A stretch of 64,000 nt of DNA, taken from Lachnospiraceae bacterium. GTDB lineage: Bacteria; Bacillota; Clostridia; Lachnospirales; Lachnospiraceae. Position 1 is the first letter of the stretch. Every line of letters begins with the position of its first letter. A program made the position numbers and the translations under genes. Of this stretch, positions 58,273 through 58,617 are shown piece by piece. The notes beneath the pieces were generated by a model, which searched no databases, had not been told where the DNA came from, and saw only the letters and a program-made list of their open reading frames with translations. The stretch is from contig JAGBBP010000003.1 in NCBI GenBank assembly GCA_017938405.1, forward strand, positions 1 through 64,000, read 5' to 3'.

Positions 58273-58305
58273 AAAAGGGCCTCCGGAACTTCCGGAGGCC
58301 CTTTT
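58273..58305 (+). terminator. Terminator of the cellobiose phosphorylase gene
   Basis: AAAAGGGCCTCCGG with CCGGAGGCCCTTTT, a perfect stem (58273-58305), 59 bases past the stop codon. Confidence 0.95.
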
Positions 58306-58318
58306 ACTCCTATTCTCC

Positions 58319-58564
58319 GCTCTTGCGATTCAAGGCCCCCTAAAAAATAGCAAAGAGAATATGATTTGTTTTTTTCAAAGCGCAACGCTTCGTCAAACTT
58401 CCTCTAACCGGTTCTACACGTCTCTCGGGAGCGACCTCGAGACTTAGAACCGGTAAGAGGCGATTTCGACTCAGCTAAAAACGCGGTCCTTCGGACAAAT
58501 TCAAAAAACTAAATCATATTCTCTTCGCTATTTTATTCTACTGTACCACTTACATCGCAAGAGC
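58319..58564. mobile_element. 246-bp MITE-like nested palindromic element
   Basis: Ends are perfect 11-base inverted repeats GCTCTTGCGAT (58319-58329) and ATCGCAAGAGC (58554-58564). TCTCC lies directly outside both ends (58314-58318 and 58565-58569), as a 5-base target duplication would. Inside, a second stem of 24 bases (58344-58367 with 58511-58534, one mismatch) encloses three hairpins: AAGCG/CGCTT (58378-58390), a 16-base stem (58401-58416 with 58445-58460, one mismatch), and GTCC/GGAC with a UUCG-like loop near 58485-58496. There is no coding frame. It could be a non-autonomous transposable element, a structured RNA, or both. Confidence 0.7.
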
Positions 58565-58617
58565 TCTCCACACCCAAAGCCTCTGAATGTACTTTCTCAG
58601 AGCAATCCATACACGCT

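Follow-up and report, generated by a model that had tools for sequence, protein, structure and literature searches.

The nested palindrome in the window (the whole 64,000-nucleotide stretch of Lachnospiraceae DNA that was analysed) is probably an old copy of a MITE-like family of non-coding, intergenic nested palindromes that has spread in Lachnospiraceae and is maintained at the level of DNA. This family of small mobile hairpins from gut Lachnospiraceae is apparently undescribed; a search of the literature on such repeats in Lachnospiraceae found no description of it. According to the mechanism that we favour, a transposase encoded elsewhere would have recognised the ends of the element and moved the copies. 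Following insertion the arms would drift and yet stay matched, either by polymerase template switching between them or by mutual conversion, and the cores would be homogenised among copies. Any action of the fold would be that of folded DNA rather than that of a selected RNA, and no host function would be needed to explain the element.

Anatomy of the window copy

An earlier note, made from the letters of the window alone, had described 11-base outer arms flanked on both sides by TCTCC, a 24-base stem with one mismatch, and further inner hairpins; all of these features are present (Table 1). The 24-base run is part of the inner stem, and smaller hairpins also lie within the element. For the 256-nt stretch the minimum free energy was -94.3 kcal/mol, compared with -48.5 +/- 4.1 kcal/mol for shuffled sequences (z = -11.3; matched by 0 of 200 shuffles). 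The palindromes of the window element are real and far beyond chance. The covariance model matched the core with a score of 154.8 bits on the + strand versus 24.1 bits on the - strand.

Table 1. Features of the window copy and its upstream neighbour (positions are those of the window)
Feature	Position	Strand	Remarks
Terminator of the upstream gene	58273-58305	+	intrinsic terminator of a cellobiose-phosphorylase-like gene; perfect 16-bp hairpin followed by a T-run
Left TCTCC	58314-58318	+	counterpart of TTCCC in the family; not a target duplication
Left outer arm, GCTCTTGCGAT	58319-58329	+	11 bases; an inner stem of the family, role as transposon end undemonstrated
Left inner arm	58344-58378	+	35 nt, 89% complementary to 58500-58534; sequence specific to this copy
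Conserved core	58381-58496	+	about 116 bp; matched by the covariance model over 58370-58509
P4 core hairpin, type A	58401-58460	+	arms 58401-58416 and 58445-58460, 16 nt, 94%
Right inner arm	58500-58534	+	complement of the left inner arm (58344-58378)
Right outer arm, ATCGCAAGAGC	58554-58564	+	11 bases; inverted partner of GCTCTTGCGAT
Right conserved motif, TCTCCACACCCAAAGCC	58565-58581	+	diverged form of the motif of other copies; includes the right TCTCC (58565-58569)

The left outer arm has a counterpart in the family, the motif (C/A)TCTTRC, which was found in 47 copies. Conserved family sequence extends beyond the ends that the earlier note had assigned to the element, since TCTCCACACCCAAAGCC corresponds to TCGCCACGCCCGAGCC of other copies. 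The ends of the window copy are too diverged to define, no target duplication is recognisable around it, and the ends of the family vary by lineage. Comparison with other copies refuted the proposal that the two TCTCC sequences are a transposition footprint: among the 46 copies that have a corresponding outer stem, the left flank is mostly TTCCC-like and the right flank mostly TCGCC or CCGCC, and the single copy with five equal flanking bases is the window copy itself. Moreover, sister species without the element carry TTCCC or ATCCC at the position of the left TCTCC. The intrinsic terminator listed in Table 1 belongs to the neighbouring gene, lies outside the element, and recurs in sister species from which the element is missing.

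A dispersed family with a conserved core and copy-specific arms

Searches with the covariance model, for which E-values are rough, identified 21 matches in the 2.9-Mb genome that contains the window and between 2 and 75+ copies in eight sister species, most of which hold 13-35. Over the 61 genomes searched, matches were found in nine of the ten genomes of the same genus and in one other genus. A search of the GTDB species genomes with a strict two-part pattern gave at least 108 stretches, which came essentially all from Lachnospiraceae. One stretch from Alteromonadaceae (L122) was rejected as a chance match to the pattern, its arms being unpaired. The compared genomes are for the most part metagenome assemblies, in which repeats cause breaks. 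The strict pattern had no match in viral contigs, and a longer version of the element had no relative in phage and plasmid collections; the family is without an Rfam, phage, plasmid or viral-contig match despite tens of copies in many Lachnospiraceae.

Folded DNA with conserved mismatches recalls the attC recombination sites of integrons, which are marked by R boxes, an integrase and a cassette array; the fetched copies are dispersed and not arranged in arrays. They share an architecture in which a core of about 116 bp (CGCAACGCT...ACTTCCT, the P4 hairpin, then GATTTCGACT..GCTAA) is closed by a near-perfect stem. The core is conserved between copies, whereas the closing stem, although near-perfect, has a different sequence in each copy. 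Accordingly, the pairing score of a copy's own arms averaged 20.8, compared with 5.8 when arms were swapped among copies. Within the genome that contains the window, the arms had no other good match besides the partner arm, L034 apart, and the idea that arms are guide-like or spacer-like copies of other genomic sequence was rejected on this search. In L034 (G000:C15:107365-107504) the adjacent right arm is unpaired and the sequence that would pair is found close to the end of a different contig (G000:C9:140-170), indicating that the assembly was probably mis-joined at the repeat.

Variant forms were seen in a genome of another genus (G035). Here, L053 and L061 have the same core inside near-perfect arms of much greater length (about 40 to 70 bp), and L070 contains two inverted cores (1131-1228 on the + strand and 1509-1606 on the - strand) that are less than 500 bp apart. 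In L061 the flank that precedes the left GGACGC (GGCGAATGCGGTAAAATAAGAAGG) is similar to the left arm (GGCGAACGCGGTAAAACAAGATGG), a possible hint that neighbouring sequence serves as the source of arms.

Evidence for mobility

The earlier note had taken the feature for a mobile element, and at the level of the family this is supported by copy number, by absence from the same site in sister species, and by terminal repeats and target duplications in young relatives. At the window locus the same two flanking genes are found without the element in four genomes (G005, G006, G007 and G009), and at several further loci one species has the element where another does not. Three sister species retain a piece of the left motif at the empty window site, so that the difference at this locus may be a loss rather than a gain, and the window copy may stem from an old insertion that was kept and not from a recent one. 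The outcome that the earlier note had named as a refutation (a single copy, the same flanks in all relatives, and no conserved pairing) was contradicted in each of its parts: many copies, empty sites and conserved pairing were all found.

The family is young in one genome (G002), where one terminal motif gave 149 matches. Copies in this genome have common terminal inverted repeats (CTTGAGTTTCCGCATTTT...AAAATGCGGAAACTC) and perfect target duplications of 8-9 bp (ATTAAATTA at L317 and TATAATCA at L316). They range from 75 to 265 bp overall and fall into a full-length class of about 245 bp and shorter classes of 185, 117 and 75-92 bp. The stretches fetched from this genome (HAN040; L304-L317) form a size ladder with identical ends, from simple hairpins of 75 bp up to copies of 265 bp with a full core.

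The earlier note had proposed a search for a transposase with matching ends. None was found in L311, L320 and L321, a subset of the end matches from fragmented assemblies, and these stretches held no ORF-bearing or autonomous element with the same ends. The Y1 transposase domain (PF01797) was absent from the genome that contains the window (G000), from G002 and from G009, with single matches in G003 and G008 only.

Arms and core covary without a preference for G.U pairs

The suggestion that the structure is maintained was borne out by co-evolving arms and by core pairs that covary across genera. When arms at the same locus were compared between species, 51 compensated pair changes were observed, 22 of them of the transversion type, compared with 4.6 expected under independent change; the orthologue sets were chosen by flank similarity, only alignable arms were counted, and several of the comparisons share species, so that these counts do not represent independent events. 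The related claim that single changes keep pairing failed for the 24-base stem, in which the sole mismatch is A.C on the + strand (and G.T only on the - strand), so that pairing would be lost in RNA read from the + strand.

In stems selected as RNA, G.U mismatches are expected to be tolerated over A.C mismatches. Among isolated arm mismatches there were 42 G.U and 52 A.C, and core mismatches in other genera comprised 12 G.U and 16 A.C. Two groups of genera counted apart gave G.U:A.C ratios of 14:18 and 33:39. One-sided differences between orthologues (n = 75) consisted of 15 G.U, 17 A.C and 43 others, whereas in RNA genes G.U is involved in 78.5% of two-step compensations (PMC8794818). This benchmark was taken from the literature because SRP RNA, used as a G.U control, was uninformative with a simple two-halves alignment. 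The finding that G.U is no commoner than A.C argues for maintenance as DNA, through template switching from arm to arm, and against a selected RNA. Template switching is an established source of perfect hairpins and also a means of their upkeep (PMC8794818), and we infer that DNA-level copying, be it template switching or arm-to-arm conversion, keeps the two arms matched.

The earlier note had also raised a structured RNA, for which the data gave no support: a G.U preference was lacking on either strand, in arms as in core, and no Rfam family reached its gathering score over the element, a relaxed threshold giving sub-gathering matches only. A structured non-coding RNA present in many copies, or a mobile element that bears such an RNA, with the core as the functional RNA tip and the arms as a selected basal helix, would fit the strong fold (z = -11.3), the covariation of core pairs across genera, the conservation of named core bases, and the tandem gene contexts, in which 45 cores are oriented with transcription and 18 against it (gene contexts here and below being approximated by long ORFs). 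However, the absence of a wobble preference and of an Rfam family, together with the free loss of copies in sister species, makes this explanation unlikely. Covariation without a check of G.U would have led to the family being labelled a structured RNA, which serves as a warning.

The P4 hairpin and residual constraint on the core

Several types of P4 hairpin swap between copies in which the arms are unchanged (L039/L102, L056/L096 and L073/L095), suggesting that cores are homogenised among copies. P4 contains conserved A.A mismatches, and in other genera the spacing between GACG and the core is mostly 37-40 nt, meaning that arm length is nearly constant. Both observations point to some remaining constraint, possibly folded DNA that is recognised by a protein, and they imply a constraint that would be superfluous for a purely selfish, decaying repeat.

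The separate histories of core and arms, as seen in the P4 swaps, raise the alternative that the core alone is mobile as folded (single-stranded or cruciform) DNA that is set on the tip of another hairpin or of a terminator, in which case the arms would come either from a host hairpin that was opened or from inverted copying of the flank during insertion. Coreless hairpins at orthologous sites (L268 and L264), a second repeat family nested in two P4 loops (L044 and L267), and loci where the empty site has one terminator hairpin and the filled site two (L259, L269 and L270) are consistent with such an event. However, copies in G002 have not just the core but also arms and ends in common, indicating that the whole element moved there; core deletion and gene conversion would explain both the coreless forms and the P4 swaps without a new mechanism; and the Y1 transposase is missing from the three genomes named above. 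We therefore regard mobility of the core alone as improbable. There is similarly little likelihood that a folded-DNA module is at work in which a hairpin-recognising enzyme sets the core on hairpin or terminator tips and the near-fixed length of the arms arises by inverted copying of the flank. To our knowledge, insertion at hairpin tips with arms made from inverted flanks is not an established mode of mobility for bacterial repeats.

Genomic setting

None of the 124 cores lies inside an ORF. Copies between convergent genes account for 49 of the 124, the window copy among them, and 11 cores lie between divergent genes. The sense of the core is that of the left-hand gene in 94 of 123 cases, a bias that could reflect either an RNA role or an insertion preference. 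The outer parts often include terminator-like hairpins. A solo terminator hairpin with the GGGCTGTCGCA motif was sought on both strands of the genome that contains the window and had one perfect site, so that a common terminator does not by itself account for the outer motif there. The simplest account is a selfish element that is tolerated behind genes, mainly downstream of them. While the convergent settings and the many copies with terminator-like outer hairpins would suit a bidirectional terminator or barrier that serves the host and was elaborated from an ordinary terminator hairpin, this is very improbable, as a separate terminator already serves the upstream gene, sister species do without the element, and neither the conserved core nor the target duplications of relatives would be needed for termination.

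Relation to known repeat systems

Bacterial MITEs (PMC10969869) resemble the family in being short, non-coding, intergenic and multicopy and in lacking a transposase of their own, and they resemble its young copies in having terminal inverted repeats and target duplications of 8-9 bp. The family differs from MITEs in its nested palindromes, its conserved multi-hairpin core, and its copy-specific yet paired arms; also, no partner insertion sequence was found. We know of no counterpart among MITEs for nested palindromes combined with a conserved core and copy-specific arms.

REP elements are one-tenth the length of the element described here. REP/REPIN sequences with their RAYT transposases (PMC3116915) are, like the family, palindromic, intergenic and dispersed. 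The family is unlike the REPIN/RAYT system by the one feature tested, the absence of PF01797 from its own genome and from G002 and G009, in both of which copy number is high.

The stem-loop repeat families of bacterial genomes (PMC2267715) likewise consist of repeated intergenic sequences with a common predicted fold; in the present case, however, the orthologues argue for maintenance at the DNA and not the RNA level, and the family is not one of those checked by sequence. Finally, template-switch hairpins (PMC8794818) have in common with the family long stems that are kept perfect by multi-base compensatory changes. Those stems belong to RNA genes, whereas here they belong to a dispersed repeat with no RNA signature. 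The locus-specific arms of sister species constitute a natural data set on the upkeep of long, perfect DNA palindromes without RNA selection.

Other repeats in the same genomes

A second family of palindromic MITEs, about 195 bp long with the ends GTAACAGTTCAGCC...GGCTGAACTGTTAC, was observed in three genomes (L284-L303; G009, G001 and G008), with more than 25 copies in G009. It is flanked by 8-bp target duplications (CTGTTTAT at L296 and TATCTCAT at L302), and it has an apical motif similar to the one in the first family. Copies of this second family are nested in the P4 loop of the first, where they form the extra domain of L044 (also L273) and of L267. A third small repeat (CGCGCCCGCGACnGAGCGACnnnGTCGCGAGGCGCG) is dispersed in all of these genomes (e.g. 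G003:C9:45136-45362 and G000:C4:71376-71418); it occurs as three units 90 bp apart in G003 and is also found inside L042, L043, L087 and L116.
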